Source of the DNA: Moritella sp. PE36
GTDB taxonomy: Bacteria; Pseudomonadota; Gammaproteobacteria; Enterobacterales; Moritellaceae
Length of the DNA stretch: 35,104 nt
Reading direction: 5' to 3'
Assembly (NCBI RefSeq): GCF_000170855.1
Contig: NZ_ABCQ01000051.1
Span: 1 to 35,104 of the forward strand
The notes beneath the pieces are model-generated. The model had not been told where the DNA came from. It saw only the letters and a program-made list of their open reading frames with translations, and did no database searches. The translations under genes were made by a program, and so were the position numbers. Position 1 is the stretch's first letter. Every line of letters starts with the position of its first letter. Below are positions 18,839 to 30,184 of this stretch, piece after piece.

Positions 18839-19780
18839 ATGAAACGGATTCTTGCATTTTTTACTCTATGTTTGATTGTATTTAGCAGTCAGGCTAAAGG
18901 CTTAACGAATAGTTCGAATTATAAGGGGTACACAGAAACGAAATATCCCATTGTTTTGGTCCATGGACTTTTTGGTTTTGATTCCATTTTGGGTATTGAC
19001 TATTTTTATGGTGTTACCCGTGCTCTAAGTAAAAGTGGTGCTGAAGTGTATGTGGCTCAAGTCTCTGCGGCGAATACGACCGAAGTTCGTGGCGAGCAGT
19101 TATTAGCACAGGTAGAACAGATTTTAGCGGCTACTGGTGCAGATAAAGTTAACTTAATTGGTCATAGCCATGGCGGGCCAACAGCACGTTATGTGGCATC
19201 TGTTGCCCCACAATACGTCGCGTCTGTTACCAGTATTGGTGGTGTAAATAAAGGCACTCGTGTTGCTGATATTTTACGTGGAGAGGTACCAGAGGGGTCG
19301 GTATCTGAGGAACTAATAGCTTCTATGGCTGATGGTTTAAGTAAGTTAATTACTTTTCTTTCTCGTGGAGGAAAGCTACCACAAGATACAGTTGCGGCAT
19401 TAGAAGCATTAACAACTAAGAACTCGCTAAAATTTAATGAATCGTATCCAGAAGGTGTGCCTATTACTGCATGTGGTGAAGGTGATTATGTTGCTGGGAA
19501 TGGGGTTTACTATTACTCATGGAGCGGTAGTGCTAACTTTACTAACGCGTTAGATCCAATGGATTTGGCGCTTACGCTGACTGGTAAGGCTTTTAATGTT
19601 CCAAATGATGGCCTTGTTTCTTCGTGCAGTTCACGCTTAGGTAAAGTAATTCGCGATAATTATAAAATGAATCATATGGATGAAGTTAATCAAACTTTAG
19701 GTCTTCATCATTTATTTGAAACTGATCCAAAAACTTTATATCGTCAACATGCTAACCGTTTAAAACTACAAGGTTTATAG
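18839..19780 (+). CDS. Secreted triacylglycerol lipase (family I, foldase-dependent)
   Basis: This 313-residue secreted lipase of the Pseudomonas/Vibrio LipA type has a signal peptide of about 19 residues (ending SSQA). The oxyanion-hole motif YPIVLVHGLFGFD is followed by the nucleophile Ser110 in GHSHGG, the catalytic acid Asp257 (PNDGLVSS) and the catalytic His279 (KMNHMDEVN). Two cysteines (in ACGEG and SSCSS) sit where family I lipases have their single disulfide. Such lipases fold in the periplasm with the help of a steric chaperone encoded next door and leave by type II secretion. The chaperone gene starts two bases after the lipase stop. Confidence 0.95.
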   Translation: MKRILAFFTLCLIVFSSQAKGLTNSSNYKGYTETKYPIVLVHGLFGFDSILGIDYFYGVTRALSKSGAEVYVAQVSAANTTEVRGEQLLAQVEQILAATGADKVNLIGHSHGGPTARYVASVAPQYVASVTSIGGVNKGTRVADILRGEVPEGSVSEELIASMADGLSKLITFLSRGGKLPQDTVAALEALTTKNSLKFNESYPEGVPITACGEGDYVAGNGVYYYSWSGSANFTNALDPMDLALTLTGKAFNVPNDGLVSSCSSRLGKVIRDNYKMNHMDEVNQTLGLHHLFETDPKTLYRQHANRLKLQGL

Positions 19781-19782
19781 AA

Positions 19783-20655
19783 ATGAAAAAGATCGTATTA
19801 ACGCTGGTAGTTTTAATCGTAGTCGTTACTGCGATCTTTATTTATAAAAACAACACGAATAAGCACATACAAGCGAAATCGTTCCAGTCAAAATCGCAGC
19901 AGGATACTGATATTGATTCAACATTTGATCGCGATACATTTGAATATTTTTTATCGGGATTAGGTGAGGTTGAGTTGGATAATTTACAAGATAAATTTAT
20001 ACAGTTTAATTTGCAACGTCCTGCTGACTCACAAATAGATAAGGCACTATTTCAGCAATATATCAACTATAAAACTTATTTACAGACACTAGAATCTAAT
20101 GCTAGTTCTGCTGAATTTGGTTTAGAAGATTTGATTGCGTTAAATGATCAATTACTTGCTGCTCAGCTTAAGTTTTTTACAGCGGAACAACAAAAAAATC
20201 TGTTCGCAGAAGAAAATCAATTAAGAATGATGACATTGAAAAAGCTAGAACTTCAGCAAGTTGCAGCGTCGGAAGAGGAGTTTAATGTACTATGGCAACA
20301 AGAATTACAGTTGCTTCCAGAAGAAGAACAGGTAGCGTATAAGAATGCGGCCTTAATGGGCTCGTTGGTAAATACAGAAGGCATGGATCCTCAAGAACAG
20401 TATTTGATACGCCAAGAACTGGTAGGGGCCGAAGGAGCACAACGTTTAGCTGAATTAGATGCAAAGAACGAAGTGTTTAACGCTGACGTTGATAGCTATT
20501 TAAATGAGCGGCAAGCGTTAATGACTGATGATAGTTTAACGATGGAAGAGCTAGAATCAGCGATAACAGAATTACGTGAAACGAATTTTTCTTCTCAACA
20601 ACAACGCCGTATTAAAGCGCTGGAACGCATTCATGATGCTAATACGGAATCATAG
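19783..20655 (+). CDS. Lipase-specific foldase (Lif, lipase chaperone)
   Basis: This 290-residue protein has an N-terminal membrane anchor (about 4-22), a short variable linker and an all-helical chaperone domain. The diagnostic Lif motif is present as R50-DTFEYFLSGLGE (50-62). The later parts (LFAEENQLRMMTLKKLEL, RQELVGAEGAQRLAELDAK, LRETNFSSQQQRRIKALERI) match the family's second mini-domain. It stays anchored in the inner membrane and wraps the lipase to drive it over its folding barrier. The gene directly follows the lipase, the normal arrangement. Confidence 0.93.
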   Translation: MKKIVLTLVVLIVVVTAIFIYKNNTNKHIQAKSFQSKSQQDTDIDSTFDRDTFEYFLSGLGEVELDNLQDKFIQFNLQRPADSQIDKALFQQYINYKTYLQTLESNASSAEFGLEDLIALNDQLLAAQLKFFTAEQQKNLFAEENQLRMMTLKKLELQQVAASEEEFNVLWQQELQLLPEEEQVAYKNAALMGSLVNTEGMDPQEQYLIRQELVGAEGAQRLAELDAKNEVFNADVDSYLNERQALMTDDSLTMEELESAITELRETNFSSQQQRRIKALERIHDANTES

Positions 20656-22203: not shown

Positions 22204-25200
22204 ATGTTCCTATCAATTTTCATTTCAAGTTTGCTTTTTTGTGTTCTGCTGCTGAGTATTGCCCATATGAATTACAGTCTAAGCTTTAAGATTAGGCGGT
22301 GGTCAGGAAAAATTGAGTCTCTGAGGAGCATTACAGTTACTGCAGCAATTGTCATCGTTTGCAGCATGTTCACTTCTTACCCGTCACAAGCCGATGGTGG
22401 TGATTTTTCTTTGGACTTTACCGCGGCTGCACCATTTGACTATAATCACACAACTGGCGGCGGAGCCTTTGAAGACCGGACTGTCGGTAAGTTCGATGAT
22501 ATAGTCGAATCTCTCGAAGGGGGGGATTTTGCCTGTGGCGACACCGTCACCTTTCTGACTCAGGTGGTAACGGCTAGCTCTCCAAGTGATGCTATTCAGA
22601 CAATCGAACTGGATTACGTATTTCTGGCTAATTCTACCGGGCAACCAGGGGTAGCTCTTAGTGATGTCACTGGTGTTCAAATTAATTATGCTGTTGCCTC
22701 GCCTGACGGCGATGGTTTGGACTCTGGCAATAAAGATAATGACAATAGTAGCGCCACACTGACAGCTGAGTTATTGACTGGACCTTTATACACCTCAGGG
22801 GCCGAATTGCATGCCACTGTCGAAGTGACAAACCTAGAAGCCGGCGAAGAAGTCATCGTGCGGGTCGACGTTCGGGTCTCCTGTGATCTGGGTTCGAGAC
22901 CAACAGGTAATCTACAGGCCCGCCTTGACGATGCGCGCACCATAGCGCCGAATGGCGATACCATACCTGGTGGCGCGCAAACCATTCCGTTCAAGAAAGT
23001 GAATAAGATTGAACCGGCGATGATCGAGGTTTCCAAAACAGTAACGACTGTTAATGGCAATTGTCCTGGCAACGAAAGCTTGACCATTGACTTAATCGAC
23101 GCGGTGAAATACTGCTATGAAGTCACCAACACAGCGACAACAACCCCACTGTTAAACGTGATGGTGGTTGATGATAACGGTACACCGGGCAATCCAAATG
23201 ATGATTTTGAAATAGAGAACCTAATTGGACTCACAAACGAAGATAACGATAATATCACCGATGATCTGGCAGCTGGTAGCGTGGCGACAGGCTCTGCCAT
23301 TGTTGAAATCAATGATTTTAACCTTGCTGGCCAGGCTCTGGTCAATATAGCCACCGCTACCGCCGATGGAGTCAGTGATACAGATCCGGCGCAGGTGAAT
23401 ATTAACCCACTGCCTGTGCCCGCAGTCGAGATTATTAAAGAAATCTGTATTAAGGTGGAATGTACGGACGGTGATTTTGTTGATGCCAATAGCAGCACTG
23501 TTGCGCCAATAACTACGTTGGGAGGCGATGCAACTTACCGAATAACCGTAGAAAACATCGGGGAAACCAGCTTGATTAATGTCATGGTTACTGATGCCCA
23601 ATTGAATATTGTTGATTATTTTGTTGGTAACCTGGCGTTTGAGGAGACAAAAATATTAACCTCAGTTAATATTCCTGAGCTTGCGCAACCCGGGCGTTGT
23701 CAGATATCGGGCGACCTTACCAATATCGCCACGGTAACGGCTGAGTTCGCGCTCACCAGTGAAACGGTCATGGATAGTGATCCCGCAGTATTAAGATGCG
23801 TCGAAGAAGCATTGACCCTTATTAAAGAAATAAGTATTGATGGTGGTACGACGTATTTCGATGCAAATGACGGAGCCAATGCACCCGTGGTTGCCCTTGG
23901 AGAAGGTGGCTTATATCGGATATCAGTATTTAATGGCGGTACCGCAGATTTGATGAACGTTGTGCTTAACGATTCGACTTTGGGTATTGCTAACTATGCT
24001 GTTGGTACCGTGTTGGTCGGGAATACGGTGATTTTGGGTGCTGGTGAAATACCTGCGCTGGCACAACCGGAACGTTGCGAGGATCCTGGTGATATCACAA
24101 ACATTGCAACCGTAACTGGCACCTCAACTGTGACCGGAAATGAGTTAAGTGCTAGCGACCCGGCGGTGTTACGCTGTGTTGAAGAGGTAATAGAAATAGT
24201 CAAAGAAATTAGCGTTGATGGTGTAAATTTCTTCGATGCTAATAACAGCAGCACAGCACCGGCAGTGGAAATAGGCGCAGGCGCCACTTACCGCATTATT
24301 TTGAGGAATAATGGTACCACTGAATTAATCAATCTGATCGTAAATGACGCAAAACTGAGCATTAGTAATTTTGCCGTATCAGGAGCACTTGCAGCGGGTA
24401 GTTCAATCACATTAACCTCAGGTGATATTACACAGCTAGACCAATCGGATACCAATTTGTGTTCGACAGCTGACGATTTTACTAATATGGCATCCGTAAC
24501 AGCTACATCTCCTGCCACAGGCAATGAGGTGAGTGATATGGATCCGGCAGTGTTACGTTGTATCAATGAAGGGATCACCATCTTGAAGGCTGTTAGTGTC
24601 GATGGCGGTAATACCTTCTTTGATGCCAACACCAGTGATACAGCTCCAAGCCTTGCTATCGGAGGGGAAGCAATCTATCGCGTCACTTTAGAGAACATAG
24701 GGTCTAGTAAGCTAGCTAATCTTGAACTCAACGATGAAGAATTGGAAGTAATTAAATTAAAACTTGATGACTTAGACATAGGTATTAAAAGAACAGAGGA
24801 CGGGATTGAGATCTCAGCACCAAGAACTCCGTGTAGCATGGCTGGTACGCACACTAACATTGCCTCAATTAATGCAATATCAGTAGCAACAGGTAATACT
24901 GTCAGCGCCAGTGACCCGGCGCTTATCAATTGTATTGGTGATGCCGCCGGTGTATTGATTATTGACGAGGACAGCATTGATAATGACCTAGTTTACTGGC
25001 TGGGAAGCGTTGCTAAACCAGAGCCGAATAATGGTTCTGATTTTTCCACCGCTGAGATTAATGAGCATATTCCCGCTATTGGTCAGCGACTGCCACTGCC
25101 GTTTTTCGTTAGTAATGTAGGTAGCCAGTTCCAGTTAAAAACTGGTCAGGTTGGTGACGAAGCCTGGTATGCTTTACAGCAAGTGCCTTCGAACTGGGGA

Positions 25201-25602
25201 GGGAATGGTTTACGTGCATTCATTAATGGTACGTTAAGACAAAGTAAGCTCGACAAAATTGATGACGTTACTCCGCTGCGAGCGACCGGGCTGAAAGGCC
25301 TCGAAGGCGGTGACTATTGTGCTATCGTCTACGACAGTGATGTCAGCATCAATTACGCCCCGTTACAGGGGAACCTACAGGGTGAAATCCTTGGCATCGC
25401 GGCATTTCATGTTGAGATTGGCGGGGTTAGATTACTCGACACCTTCTCATCAAGTACGTTACCCTCGGTTCTTATTTCCGCGCTTGATCCAACAACTGTT
25501 TGTGCGGGACAACTCCGTTTGCTTAGCGCGCCGCGACCACCTAGTTCGTCAGAGCCGGCAGATATAGATCCGGATAATCCAAAAGGAGGTTACTTGCAGT
25601 AG
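22204..25602 (+). CDS. Large repeat-containing surface/secreted protein (DUF11-like domains)
   Basis: This 1132-residue protein has two hydrophobic N-terminal segments (about 3-22 and 44-63). The second ends SYPSQA|DGG and looks like a signal peptide with a long positively charged leader starting at Met23. After a unique domain (about 65-270) come five repeats of about 125-134 residues starting near residues 274, 408, 537, 663 and 791. Each opens with an IEIVKEIS-type strand, has a YRITVENIGE...LINVMVTD core and closes with ...SDPAVLRC; these resemble the DUF11-type immunoglobulin-like repeats of bacterial surface proteins. A unique C-terminal domain (about 916-1132) follows, with no LPxTG, PEP-CTERM or autotransporter barrel visible. 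The first kilobase is GC-richer than the neighbours. Adhesion or matrix function is a guess. Confidence 0.7.
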   Translation: MFLSIFISSLLFCVLLLSIAHMNYSLSFKIRRWSGKIESLRSITVTAAIVIVCSMFTSYPSQADGGDFSLDFTAAAPFDYNHTTGGGAFEDRTVGKFDDIVESLEGGDFACGDTVTFLTQVVTASSPSDAIQTIELDYVFLANSTGQPGVALSDVTGVQINYAVASPDGDGLDSGNKDNDNSSATLTAELLTGPLYTSGAELHATVEVTNLEAGEEVIVRVDVRVSCDLGSRPTGNLQARLDDARTIAPNGDTIPGGAQTIPFKKVNKIEPAMIEVSKTVTTVNGNCPGNESLTIDLIDAVKYCYEVTNTATTTPLLNVMVVDDNGTPGNPNDDFEIENLIGLTNEDNDNITDDLAAGSVATGSAIVEINDFNLAGQALVNIATATADGVSDTDPAQVNINPLPVPAVEIIKEICIKVECTDGDFVDANSSTVAPITTLGGDATYRITVENIGETSLINVMVTDAQLNIVDYFVGNLAFEETKILTSVNIPELAQPGRCQISGDLTNIATVTAEFALTSETVMDSDPAVLRCVEEALTLIKEISIDGGTTYFDANDGANAPVVALGEGGLYRISVFNGGTADLMNVVLNDSTLGIANYAVGTVLVGNTVILGAGEIPALAQPERCEDPGDITNIATVTGTSTVTGNELSASDPAVLRCVEEVIEIVKEISVDGVNFFDANNSSTAPAVEIGAGATYRIILRNNGTTELINLIVNDAKLSISNFAVSGALAAGSSITLTSGDITQLDQSDTNLCSTADDFTNMASVTATSPATGNEVSDMDPAVLRCINEGITILKAVSVDGGNTFFDANTSDTAPSLAIGGEAIYRVTLENIGSSKLANLELNDEELEVIKLKLDDLDIGIKRTEDGIEISAPRTPCSMAGTHTNIASINAISVATGNTVSASDPALINCIGDAAGVLIIDEDSIDNDLVYWLGSVAKPEPNNGSDFSTAEINEHIPAIGQRLPLPFFVSNVGSQFQLKTGQVGDEAWYALQQVPSNWGGNGLRAFINGTLRQSKLDKIDDVTPLRATGLKGLEGGDYCAIVYDSDVSINYAPLQGNLQGEILGIAAFHVEIGGVRLLDTFSSSTLPSVLISALDPTTVCAGQLRLLSAPRPPSSSEPADIDPDNPKGGYLQ
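23023..24948 (+). repeat. Five tandem Ig-like domain repeats within the surface-protein gene
   Basis: Units begin near 23023, 23425, 23812, 24190 and 24574 (375-402 bases each). The first is the most divergent and has an inserted acidic loop (NDDFEIENL). The last four share FxDANxxxxAP, the YRI/V strand and the closing DPA-(V/L) plus cysteine, which suggests one conserved disulfide per domain. DNA identity between units is modest, so the duplication is old. Confidence 0.75.
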
Positions 25603-26014: not shown

Positions 26015-27352
26015 GTGAATATACTAAAAAATGTAATAACAACAACTTGCCTCACTTGTGTTATGAGTGCGTCTGCACTTGCCGACAGTGATATCTACCT
26101 TACCAACAACTCTAACCAGACCATGTCGATTCAAGTTAACCACACTGGTTCAGATTTACTTGAAGAAGGTGCAGAATGGCAACAACATGTACAGACACTT
26201 AAACAATGGGAAACTAAAATGGTATTAAGTTTTAATCGCTGGGAAGGGGTTAAGTCTGGTGATACTTATCAGTTCGAAACATTGGTGACCAATGAAAATG
26301 GCGAGTCGCTGTCGTTGTTACAACAAGTGAAAGGATATTGGTATAAATCAACACTTGATCATGGCGCAAGTACCAATGATGTTGCGTTGAATTGGGCGGA
26401 TGATCGTGATACTCATCGTTATGAGTCCAAATACAACAGTAACAGCAGTAGTACTGAAATCGCTTTTAAAGCGAGTGCGACTGGTCGTTATGATGATATT
26501 TATTACAGTATCACCCCGCAAAAAATTGATGAACAGCCTGTAGCAGACGCAGATACACTCAAAGTCATGTCATATAACGTCTGGGCTCTGCCTGTGATTG
26601 CAAAGCACATCGGTGACCGTTTTCAGGAAATACCGAAGCATTTAAAAGGCTATGATGTGCTTATGCTACAGGAAGTCTTTGCTTCTGGTCGTGATGCATT
26701 TTTGCGTGATCTTGCTAAAGAATATCCGTATCAAACGAAGATGTTAGATTACCCTGGGATTAATGTTTACGATGGTGGTGTGACTATCGTGAGTCGCTAT
26801 CCAATTGTTAATGAAGGGCAATACGTCTATCCCGATTGCTCTGGGACAGACTGCTTTGCCGACAAAGGCGTAAATTATGCTGAAGTGATCAAAAATGGTA
26901 AGGCATATCATGTATTCGCAACCCATACAGCGTCGTTCGATACTGATACCGCACGTGATTACCGCCAACGTCAATTCCGCCAGATGCGTGATTTTGCACA
27001 AGCGCAGAATATCCCAGTCACTGATACTGTTGTCTATGGTGGTGATTTTAATGTGAACAAACTTAAATTCCCAACTGACTATCAACAGATGTTTGCCAAC
27101 CTTAGCGCTGATGAACCGCAATATGCGGGTTATACAGAATCAACGTTTGATCCGCGCATTAATGCCTACGCAGGTAATGCGTTATCGGGTGGTGAAAATA
27201 TCGAATATCTTGATTATGTGGTGGTCAGTAATGAATTTGCCAAGCGAAACGAGAACATAAACACAGTGAAAATACCGCGTACCACGGTTGCTAGTTTATG
27301 GAAGCATTGGAATTTGTCTGATCATTTTCCTGTTAAAGCAGTAATCCGTTAA
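26015..27352 (+). CDS. Secreted neutral sphingomyelinase C
   Basis: This 445-residue protein has a signal peptide (about 1-23, ending ALA|DS), an N-terminal beta-rich domain (about 24-175) and an endonuclease/exonuclease/phosphatase-fold catalytic domain (about 180-445). The catalytic residues of bacterial sphingomyelinases are visible: the VMSYNVWALP asparagine, metal-binding Glu220 (MLQEVF), FATHTAS, GGDFNVNK, LDYVVVS and the general base His437 (SDHFPVKAV). It splits sphingomyelin into ceramide and phosphocholine and often acts as a haemolysin. The start is GTG 26015, with AAAGG about 8 bases upstream. The stop shares one base with the ATG of the next gene, a foldase-like protein, which implies a two-gene unit. 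Confidence 0.93.
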   Translation: MNILKNVITTTCLTCVMSASALADSDIYLTNNSNQTMSIQVNHTGSDLLEEGAEWQQHVQTLKQWETKMVLSFNRWEGVKSGDTYQFETLVTNENGESLSLLQQVKGYWYKSTLDHGASTNDVALNWADDRDTHRYESKYNSNSSSTEIAFKASATGRYDDIYYSITPQKIDEQPVADADTLKVMSYNVWALPVIAKHIGDRFQEIPKHLKGYDVLMLQEVFASGRDAFLRDLAKEYPYQTKMLDYPGINVYDGGVTIVSRYPIVNEGQYVYPDCSGTDCFADKGVNYAEVIKNGKAYHVFATHTASFDTDTARDYRQRQFRQMRDFAQAQNIPVTDTVVYGGDFNVNKLKFPTDYQQMFANLSADEPQYAGYTESTFDPRINAYAGNALSGGENIEYLDYVVVSNEFAKRNENINTVKIPRTTVASLWKHWNLSDHFPVKAVIR

Positions 27353-28311
27353 TGCGATTGCCATTACTATTAATAAGCGTTGCCTTTATTGGCAGCGTTT
27401 ATTTCTTCATCACCAATGAAAATGAATTGAATGCAGAGAAGCAAGAAAGTGCCATACCTGCATTATCTGAAACCGATCATTCAACAATACAACCCACAGA
27501 CATAGCACCGAATAAAACGAAAGAAAAAATACCAGTTAATGAAGATATGTCTGAGCCAGAAACCTTATTGCAAGACGCACAAGGTCAAACGTTAATGACG
27601 GCGATAACGTCATTTTGGCAGCAATGTCGAAGGGAAAATAATTGCGATGAATTGTTAGCCGAACAGCAGTTGATACTTGACGATGCTCGTTATCAGTTGT
27701 TAGTTAACTTCCCTGTAAATCAACAGAACGAACAACGGTTGATGGGGGCGTCGTTAATCAGTCAGGATGCAAGTTTGGCGGATAAAATCGCCAATGTTAA
27801 AGGGATTAGAGAGCTGGTGTGGGCTGACGATGCCGCGCTGTTATTTCAGCAGCAAGATGCTTATTATGACTACCGTTTATCGTTAGCGGATCCTGAAAGT
27901 CGATTTAACCAGACTCAGAACGCGGATGATTTTATCAATGAATACAATGCGATGTTGGCAGAGCAGGGTGATGATTTAGATAGCTTTGCGTTAAGTTCTG
28001 ATACTGCCAAGTATGAAGAGGCGTTGCATTTAATCCCACCGTCTATGCCTGAAGATGAAACAGCAAGAATTAAGGCTGAACTGGCTTCGCAATATCTCAC
28101 CGCTAATGAGCGACAATCCATTGTTAATAGAGAGCAGCAAGTTGATAAGCAAGAGCAAGAAATAACGGATTACCAGCAGGGATTAAATCAACTTGAGGCC
28201 ACACTTGCTAATGAACGTGCAACGTCAAAGCAAACGATGAGTGATGAGGATTGGCTAGCTTATAAAGCTGATCGCTTGTATCAATATCGTCTTAACTTCT
28301 TTAGTCTTTAG
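27352..28311 (+). CDS. Lif-like membrane-anchored chaperone paired with sphingomyelinase
   Basis: This 319-residue protein has an N-terminal membrane anchor (about 3-20), a low-complexity Pro/Thr/Glu linker (about 25-65) and a helical domain that resembles the lipase foldase. ADDAALLFQQQDAYYDYRLSL corresponds to the Lif segment with LFxEExxYxxYxLxRL. The C-terminal LASQYLTANERQSIVNREQQ and the coiled-coil-like stretch following it correspond to the end of Lif. The strict RxxFxYxLSxLGE motif is missing; in its place is AITSFWQQCRRENNCDELL, with two cysteines. Its start codon overlaps the sphingomyelinase stop (TAATG). By analogy with the lipase/Lif pair at 18839-20655 it should help fold the sphingomyelinase before secretion. 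The relationship is clear by eye but divergent. Confidence 0.75.
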   Translation: MRLPLLLISVAFIGSVYFFITNENELNAEKQESAIPALSETDHSTIQPTDIAPNKTKEKIPVNEDMSEPETLLQDAQGQTLMTAITSFWQQCRRENNCDELLAEQQLILDDARYQLLVNFPVNQQNEQRLMGASLISQDASLADKIANVKGIRELVWADDAALLFQQQDAYYDYRLSLADPESRFNQTQNADDFINEYNAMLAEQGDDLDSFALSSDTAKYEEALHLIPPSMPEDETARIKAELASQYLTANERQSIVNREQQVDKQEQEITDYQQGLNQLEATLANERATSKQTMSDEDWLAYKADRLYQYRLNFFSL

Positions 28312-28368
28312 GTTGTATTAAAAAGCTTAATGAAAAAGTCATGTTTCCTTCATGTTAACGGCGCAGAC

Positions 28369-28403
28369 TATAATGACATCTGGGCTATACCAGATGTCAT
28401 TTT
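28369..28403 (+). terminator. Terminator-like hairpin overlapping a TATAAT before the phosphodiesterase gene
   Basis: The arms AATGACATCTGG (28372-28383) and CCAGATGTCATT (28390-28401) are perfect 12-bp complements around GCTATA, followed by TT only (four T in all), so termination may be partial. A TATAAT box (28369-28374) overlaps the left arm and could be the minus-10 of a promoter for the next gene, whose SD is at 28415 and ATG at 28427. The element may end the sphingomyelinase transcript while the promoter restarts. Confidence 0.6.
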
Positions 28404-28426
28404 GTGAAGTCGACAAGGAGAAGACC

Positions 28427-30184
28427 ATGAAAAAGACGATGATAATTGCGTTATTAACCGTTGGGGTAGGGATGCAAGTACCCTCTGTGTTAGCGGCCAA
28501 TAAAGCTGTGTTATTGGGTATTGATGGAGTGCAATGGGAAAAGGTACAAGCTTTAAATACCCCAAACTTTGACCGTTTGAATATCAATAAAGCGTATACG
28601 GGTGGCATGAAAGGTTATGACAATGAGCAGTTAACATCAAGTGGACCTGGCTGGGCGACAATTTTAACGGGTGTTTGGGTTAATAAGCATAACGTCGATA
28701 CTAACAGTGCAGGCTTGGCTAATGCCGATTTCCCCAGTATTTTTAAACGTATTTATGATGCAAACCCGATATTAACTCAAGCGTCATTAGTGCATTGGTC
28801 TCCGATTAATACGCAGTTTTTCAGCAATGATATTGCTAATGTTGAGCGGGTCGAAAGTGGCATCAGTGATGCGGATGTAACGTCTGCGACAATAAGTGAA
28901 ATAAATAAAGGCACTGATTTTGTATTTGCACACTTAGATGATCCTGACCATCATGGGCACAGTACGTGTTTTGGTAGCGCTTATAACAAGAGTATTATTA
29001 CTGCTGATCAGCAATTGGGTGAAATCCTAGACGCAATTGAAGTGGCTGAAAAACAAAGTGGCGATAATTGGCTGCTAATGGTAACGACAGATCATGGTCG
29101 TGACAGCTTAGGTTGTGGTCATGGCGCGCAGAAGCTGAACCAAAAAACCATCTTTATCGGCAGTAATGAACTAGTTAATGCTGAGCTTACCGAGAAATTG
29201 GTTGGCTCAAATAACGATTTTTCAGGGCTTTATGGTTACGCGGCACAAACGTCTATTGTGCCCACTTTATTAACCCACTTGGGAATTAAGGTTGAGCAAG
29301 AATGGAAACTGGATGGTCCATCGCTTATCGGTGAATTAGGTGTTCGCAAATTAGTGGCAAGTACTGATGGTTATTTACAGTGGATAAATGAGAGTGACGA
29401 TGATATTCGCATTTATCGTAATGATATTTTGGTTGATGTATTGTCTGCGCAAAATAATTCGTGGCAAGACAATGCGAATACTCGGTTGGGCACAGTAGAT
29501 TATGTTCTTGCGAGTAATGCTAATCCAGTCGCTTTTAGACATAATGTGATGGATGTTAATGCTGGGCTAAGTTGGAACTTATCACGAGGCTATTTCTTCC
29601 GTAGTGATACGCAATATGTGCGTTATAACAAAGTATTGGATAAAGCAGAAGACGGTTACCCGCGCGCTGTGAATGAGAGTAATTGGCCTGGTCTTGGTGC
29701 TGATCGTGAAAACCTGGTTGCCAGTTTCCACAAAGACAGTGATACGGCTTATTTTTTTACTAATGATGGGCAATATTTATCTTACGACCTGAATACTGAT
29801 TCTGTTCGAGATGGTTATCCGAAAGCGGTCGACGCGACCACATGGTCAGGGCTTGAAGCATATGCTGACAATATCGTGGCGACATTACGTTGGAAAGGTA
29901 ATAAAGTTTATTTCTTCCTTGATGACGGAAGTTATCTACGTTATGACTTAGTTAACGATAGCGTTGACAGTGGTTACCCAAAACCGATAAATGATTCCAC
30001 TTGGCCTGGTCTGGGGGCTTATGCACAACAGATTACGGCTGCAATTTATTGGGATGATACACGCGCATATTTCTTTTTGGATGGTCAACGTTATATTCGC
30101 TACAGTATAACAAGTGATCGTGTTGATAGTGGTTATCCTAAACCGACCAATGATAATACATGGCCAGGTCTGTTGGGAATGTAA
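28427..30184 (+). CDS. Secreted type I phosphodiesterase/nucleotide pyrophosphatase with hemopexin-like repeats
   Basis: This 585-residue protein starts at ATG 28427, which has AAGGAG six bases upstream; the frame is open further up to 28352. A signal peptide (about 1-23, ending VLA) is followed by an alkaline-phosphatase-superfamily domain (about 25-330). Metal ligands and nucleophile are visible: Asp33 in LGIDGVQ, the TSSGPGWATILTG nucleophile loop (Ser72 or nearby), LDDPDHHGH, TTDHGRD and CGHG. A linker of about 50 residues leads to four hemopexin-type repeats (YFF at about 389, 442, 495 and 548), each of 53 residues with YxRY, GYPK and WPGL. Family members hydrolyse phosphodiester or phosphocholine-type bonds. 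Placement after the sphingomyelinase suggests work on lipid head groups; this is inference. Confidence 0.85.
   Translation: MKKTMIIALLTVGVGMQVPSVLAANKAVLLGIDGVQWEKVQALNTPNFDRLNINKAYTGGMKGYDNEQLTSSGPGWATILTGVWVNKHNVDTNSAGLANADFPSIFKRIYDANPILTQASLVHWSPINTQFFSNDIANVERVESGISDADVTSATISEINKGTDFVFAHLDDPDHHGHSTCFGSAYNKSIITADQQLGEILDAIEVAEKQSGDNWLLMVTTDHGRDSLGCGHGAQKLNQKTIFIGSNELVNAELTEKLVGSNNDFSGLYGYAAQTSIVPTLLTHLGIKVEQEWKLDGPSLIGELGVRKLVASTDGYLQWINESDDDIRIYRNDILVDVLSAQNNSWQDNANTRLGTVDYVLASNANPVAFRHNVMDVNAGLSWNLSRGYFFRSDTQYVRYNKVLDKAEDGYPRAVNESNWPGLGADRENLVASFHKDSDTAYFFTNDGQYLSYDLNTDSVRDGYPKAVDATTWSGLEAYADNIVATLRWKGNKVYFFLDDGSYLRYDLVNDSVDSGYPKPINDSTWPGLGAYAQQITAAIYWDDTRAYFFLDGQRYIRYSITSDRVDSGYPKPTNDNTWPGLLGM
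29591..30178 (+). repeat. Four hemopexin-type repeats with exact 159-nt period
   Basis: The YFF codons of successive units begin at 29591, 29750, 29909 and 30068, precisely 159 bases apart. Each unit carries the pattern YFF...Y(V/L/I)(R/S)Y...D(S/R/K)(V/A)...GYPK or GYPR...(W)(P/S)GL. The regular spacing fits a four-bladed hemopexin propeller. Inter-unit sequence is similar but not identical. Confidence 0.85.

Follow-up and report, generated by a model that had tools for sequence, protein, structure and literature searches.

The steric chaperones of lipases, known as Lif, LipB or LipH (family PF03280; solved structures 2es4 and 9g8u), serve lipases of families I.1/I.2 with the alpha/beta hydrolase fold. 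They are described as carrying a membrane anchor and then a linker that mostly measures 30-55 residues (PMC13381987), followed by eleven helices in the parts MD1, EHD and MD2 (PMC7046727). A class of type II secretion chaperones bound to the membrane was put forward by Harding et al. 2016; it includes LipB and also CpaB, whose removal halts the secretion of its protease (PMC4713064). Here we analyse a stretch of 35,104 nucleotides from Moritella sp. PE36 (contig NZ_ABCQ01000051.1, positions 1 to 35,104 of the forward strand; the window), where the gene of a sphingomyelinase, P0001, is followed by that of a helical protein, P0002, and we consider it probable that P0002, anchored in the inner membrane, serves P0001 as a dedicated chaperone in the periplasm; its layout is Lif-like and it is probably of remote Lif descent. 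With PlcH/PlcR, Pseudomonas too has a secreted phospholipase that acts on sphingomyelin and comes with a partner of its own; that enzyme is of another fold and that partner is unrelated.

Like the Lifs, P0002 is encoded directly downstream of its enzyme and starts with a predicted anchor; like the chaperones of Harding et al. 2016, it adjoins its enzyme (in 31/31 cases) and combines a predicted N-terminal membrane helix with a soluble part expected in the periplasm. Table 1 of that publication has lipases, proteases, a non-hemolytic phospholipase C and a pectinacetylesterase among the clients, with no sphingomyelinase in it (PMC4713064), and no title found in the open-access literature describes a sphingomyelinase with such a chaperone partner. 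CpaB itself is described by the same authors as having an SRPBCC-type domain (PMC4713064).

The enzyme and its partner

P0001 begins with what, judged by eye, resembles a signal peptide, and its Exo_endo_phos domain is recognised by Pfam over the cut-off (PF03372, E 7.8e-16). The sphingomyelin phosphodiesterase model TIGR03395 matches it over the full length with E 9.7e-45 and 153 bits, below the curated cut-off of 248 bits, and the nearest solved chains are seven beta-hemolysin/sphingomyelinase C sequences of the PDB (E 3e-36 to 1e-25). An earlier note, made from the letters of the window alone, had read there a one-base overlap of the two genes, a membrane-anchored, helix-rich second protein and a normal lipase/Lif pair for comparison; the positions of the stop and start codons, the predicted hydrophobic helix and all-helical domain, and the PF03280 match of the Lif P0004 agree with these readings (Table 1). 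The overlap would be compatible with translational coupling.

Table 1. Positions in the window of the sphingomyelinase pair, the comparator pair and neighbouring features
Feature	Position	Strand	Basis
Sphingomyelinase P0001, 445 aa	26015..27352	+	N-terminal domain, Exo_endo_phos domain residues 185-437
One-base overlap TAATG of P0001 stop and P0002 start	27352..27352	+	TAA 27350-27352, ATG 27352-27354
P0002, partner protein of 319 aa, candidate chaperone with membrane anchor	27352..28311	+	sequence and predicted model
N-terminal hydrophobic helix of P0002, residues 7-21, predicted membrane anchor	27370..27414	+	low-confidence model helix; sequence
Disordered linker of P0002, residues 22-67	27415..27552	+	pLDDT under 50 for residues 1-67
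All-helical domain of P0002, residues 68-319, expected periplasmic	27553..28308	+	model; colinear alignment with Lif chaperone domain
FWxxCxxxxxC pattern of P0002 (C92, C98)	27625..27645
Lipase P0003, alpha/beta hydrolase, comparator	18839..19780	+	Pfam
True Lif P0004, comparator	19783..20655	+	PF03280 E 1.7e-33
1132-residue protein with DUF11/DUF7507-type repeats	22204..25602
Phosphodiesterase-like protein with four hemopexin repeats	28352..30184

The model of P0002 was produced by AlphaFold2 with an alignment of 31 partner sequences (A2). The linker, of 46 residues, lies inside the range usual for Lifs (PMC13381987), and the domain behind it is predicted as twelve helices with pLDDT about 90, as against eleven in Lif (PMC7046727). 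Eleven residues are invariant across the 31 partners, all of them within 224-317, and every partner ends in R..FF; the chain stops just past the position aligned to the invariant Phe near the C-terminus of Lif. Unlike Lif, the Aeromonas-like homologues of P0002 are missing the MD1 part.

The FWxxCxxxxxC pattern is present in 20/31 partners and absent from the 11 Aeromonas-like ones. Its two cysteines lie in the MD1-like part and may possibly form a disulfide.

Conservation of the gene pair

Our survey covered 394 genomes of the order, and the partner was searched for at a threshold of E 0.001 with a profile built from eleven partners, ten of Moritella and one of Vibrio. The partner was matched in 34 genomes and P0001 in 37 (E 1e-10), 31 of the latter having an enzyme of at least 58% identity. 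The neighbourhood of the two genes, which the earlier note had left to a survey of genomes, proved to be constant: all 31 sphingomyelinases of this clade have a P0002 homologue directly downstream on the same strand, as established by comparing hit coordinates by hand. The pairs span four genera, Moritella, g21, g5 and g35, of which g21 clusters in the enzyme tree with Vibrio sp. THAF191d, and g35 is one that we take to be Aeromonas-like.

The partner frame is intact from the start codon through the anchor in 30/31 loci, the first part being out of frame in G315. The two genes share one base in the ten loci of Moritella and in that of Vibrio sp. THAF191d, and four bases in the Aeromonas-like loci; in the other Vibrio-like loci they are separated by short gaps, and G123 has about 160 bases or more between them. 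The flanking genes vary between the genera compared while the pair persists, so the pair itself appears to be the conserved unit. With dN/dS of 0.13-0.38 in 12 pairs the partner gene is under purifying selection, and the partner changes more in its amino acids than the enzyme does. Mirror-tree correlations of enzyme and partner within genera (0.84, 0.54 and 0.84) reflect mostly the shared species history, and we do not count them as evidence of contact.

A class-wide search of 369 genomes at E 1e-30 matched only the own genome and G429, the locus of which is without a partner match. Two Belliella loci (L014, L015) were set aside, their matches covering only 36 and 39 residues, and among 132 pattern matches in viral contigs there was no relative.

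Unpaired sphingomyelinases and decayed loci

Three genomes with a partner match, G074, G199 and G104, were without such an enzyme at E 1e-10, and in each of them the partner is shortened. What is left is a frame of 126 residues in G074 and likewise in G199 and, in G104, a remnant (L088 3972-4685) whose frame opens as a sphingomyelinase start and runs into the second half of the partner. In Moritella G002, which has no partner match, the sole trace of a sphingomyelinase is an open frame of 178 residues that corresponds to the second half of a sphingomyelinase of a different type.

Besides the clade, the survey gave 20 rows of other, more distant sphingomyelinases, from which 11 loci were fetched and, with the one from G429, 12 were examined. 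The partner was absent at 12/12 of these loci when 309 frames of at least 60 residues were searched with two partner profiles, which matched the control loci in 9/9 cases. The twelve include one of the own genome (G000, contig C130) and two of G333, a genome also having a paired enzyme; genome-wide, the own genome and G333 have one partner each. In a tree of 10 unpaired and 32 paired enzymes, from which the broken copy L094 was excluded, the paired ones stand on one side of a single branch (SH-aLRT 81, with long branches flagged). Several unpaired enzymes have, by alignment, the same layout and catalytic-domain motifs as the paired ones, which indicates that the fold as such needs no partner.

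It might be supposed that P0002 is an unrelated helical protein that only shares the operon, and it does have no family match. Such an explanation is, nevertheless, hardly credible given the linkage in 31/31 cases over four genera with changing flanks, the joint decay of the two genes and the missing partner at other sphingomyelinase loci. Adjacency, anchor and joint decay would be equally expected if P0002, instead of aiding the folding of the enzyme, inhibited it or held it inactive in the periplasm, or tethered it to the membrane. We regard this as improbable, as other sphingomyelinases of the same genomes do without a partner and the layout of P0002 is Lif-like. Moreover, sphingomyelin is not known from bacteria of this kind, so self-protection should be needless.

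Possible relation of P0002 to lipase foldases

For the comparison with Lif we collected 28 true Lifs, every one found by PF03280, in the alignment A3. It was built from 35 Lif loci (the Lif places listed in the Lif search outnumber the 30 loci given from it), of which seven were dropped, L105 for a wrong frame and L018, L077, L116, L118, L119 and L122 as partial or cut by the chosen start codon; L016 entered as P0004, and the weak match L075 was never included.

The resemblance to lipase foldases claimed in the earlier note is seen when profiles are compared with each other and, to a modest degree, in the predicted fold, but not by Pfam, NCBIfam, HMMER or BLASTP with P0004. PF03280 was matched by 0/31 partners in a Pfam search that gave 20 families up to E 0.1, and there was no lipase secretion chaperone model among the 23 NCBIfam families matching partners up to E 1, P0004 being the positive control in both; the matches that partners did obtain were chance matches only. 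A Lif profile run against 509 frames, 373 of them reported, ranked no partner over unrelated frames, and BLASTP of P0002 against P0004 gave nothing convincing. A narrower partner alignment, A1, was not significantly similar to Lif (probability score 2.1), and with it a profile search of the PDB returned two matches, both judged to be chance.

With all 31 partners in the alignment the picture is different. Compared by hhalign, A2 and A3 gave a score of 52.1, a probability score of 89.7 and E 1.9e-6 for this single comparison, over 221 columns, and the alignment is colinear over the whole domain, from partner residues 67-319 to positions 75-305 of the Lif profile. Reversed-profile controls scored 18.0 or 20.5, and 100 shuffles of 21-column blocks peaked at 43.1; with another column setting the true score was 44.1, the reversed ones were 17.7 and 13.6, and the maximum over 20 shuffles of 42-column blocks was 35.7. 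Unrelated alpha-helical families built alike scored 22.9 (PspA), 12.1 (Skp) and 18.7 (SurA). The Aeromonas-like partners are related to the others by profile-profile comparison (probability score 96.2, E 2.8e-9), and on leaving out their rows A2 still scored 49.4 against Lif. Partner subsets of a single genus reached 21-30, which is not significant, as compared to 147-208 for Lif subsets against one another; the relation of P0002 to Lif, if true, is therefore very remote.

The strict foldase motif, which according to the earlier note was replaced in the second protein, is indeed lost: RXXFDY(F/C)L(S/T)A, which in Lif belongs to helix 1 of MD1, is absent from the partners, the best agreement being 4/8 fixed positions in 12/31 and 3/8 in 19/31. 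Motif loss alone says little, because Lifs of the set often break the motif too, 11/28 of those with PF03280 reaching only 3-4 of the 8 positions. The string of P0002 most like the motif, DAYYDYRLSL, was considered as a displaced foldase motif and rejected, since it aligns with the middle of Lif and not with MD1.

When the P0002 model was compared with 142 chains (VIA), both solved Lif complexes came to the top, LipB 9g8u_B in the first rank and Lif 2es4_E in the second, with modest Z of 7.2 and 7.0 and end-to-end alignments of 208 and 207 residues. The structural check of the second protein alone went modestly in favour of the likeness that had been proposed. Foldseek against the PDB listed 22 matches up to E 10, none significant and no Lif among them. 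For the model of an Aeromonas-like partner (mean pLDDT 72.2) there was no Lif among the best 50 of 382 aligned chains, a result that neither confirms nor excludes the relation.

These data bear on whether P0002 may have arisen independently as a type II secretion chaperone, comparable to CpaB with its protease CpaA, and have come to look like Lif by convergence. The chaperone class is set by adjacency and an N-terminal anchor, whatever the fold (PMC4713064), and the missing PF03280 matches, the modest Z of the Lif matches, the negative Foldseek search and the result for the Aeromonas-like model would all suit such an origin. Against it stand an end-to-end colinear profile alignment that beats the reversed profiles, the 100 shuffles of column blocks and the three helical families used as unrelated controls, and the top ranks of the two solved Lif complexes. 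We hold convergence to be rather unlikely; remote descent from Lif remains our preferred explanation.

Proposed mechanism and its significance

The gene pair with its overlap, the co-occurrence, the joint decay, the predicted architecture and the profile similarity were all seen in the data; we infer that P0002 binds P0001 and helps it to fold, that this occurs in the periplasm and that type II secretion exports the enzyme. If Lif and CpaB are a guide, the two proteins would be translated together, P0001 would enter the periplasm by Sec, and the tethered domain of P0002 would meet it on leaving the Sec channel. The helical crescent of P0002 may then bind the enzyme and aid it in reaching a secretion-competent fold, and P0002 would stay behind as P0001 leaves via the type II system. 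GspD (over the cut-off) and GspE (truncated by the locus end and just under the cut-off) are present in the genome.

The earlier note went further and suggested a new steric-folding system. The Lif similarity and the conserved pairing speak for it, but formal Lif membership of P0002 fails: there is no PF03280 match and no foldase motif, and the client, an Exo_endo_phos sphingomyelinase in place of a family I.1/I.2 lipase, is of another fold; steric folding itself is presumed by analogy. The chances seem to us evenly balanced that the Lif scaffold was re-tailored here, a Lif descendant acting as steric chaperone of a sphingomyelinase of the DNase-I fold and thereby constituting a third class of steric foldase. 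If it is true, a foldase of this architecture would not need an alpha/beta hydrolase as its client, and there would be a third client fold with a remote Lif-like partner, for which the unpaired sphingomyelinases of the same genome provide a natural control. Such a system would allow one to ask directly by which features a foldase knows its client, and why certain enzymes of a family depend on a foldase. We may also predict that such pairing could explain why these enzymes are poorly active when produced without the partner.

Lipase/Lif loci and neighbouring genes

The genome holds three lipase/Lif loci, namely that of the window (18839-20655), L017 and L018, and the Lif on contig C121 covers only the first 101 of 192 profile positions. 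In Moritella DT_65 (L012 166-3247) one lipase is flanked by Lif on both sides. In 7/10 Moritella genomes (G000, G003, G004, G005, G007, G009 and G010) a Lif is encoded no more than about 10 kb away from the sphingomyelinase pair, and a Lif gene is also found beside the G104 remnant; this closeness is possibly a trace of local duplication.

Between the Lif and the sphingomyelinase of the window stands the gene of the repeat protein, and right after the pair that of the hemopexin-repeat protein (Table 1). An open reading frame of the same length as the latter (610 aa) follows the pair in L011 and L012, and not in L013.
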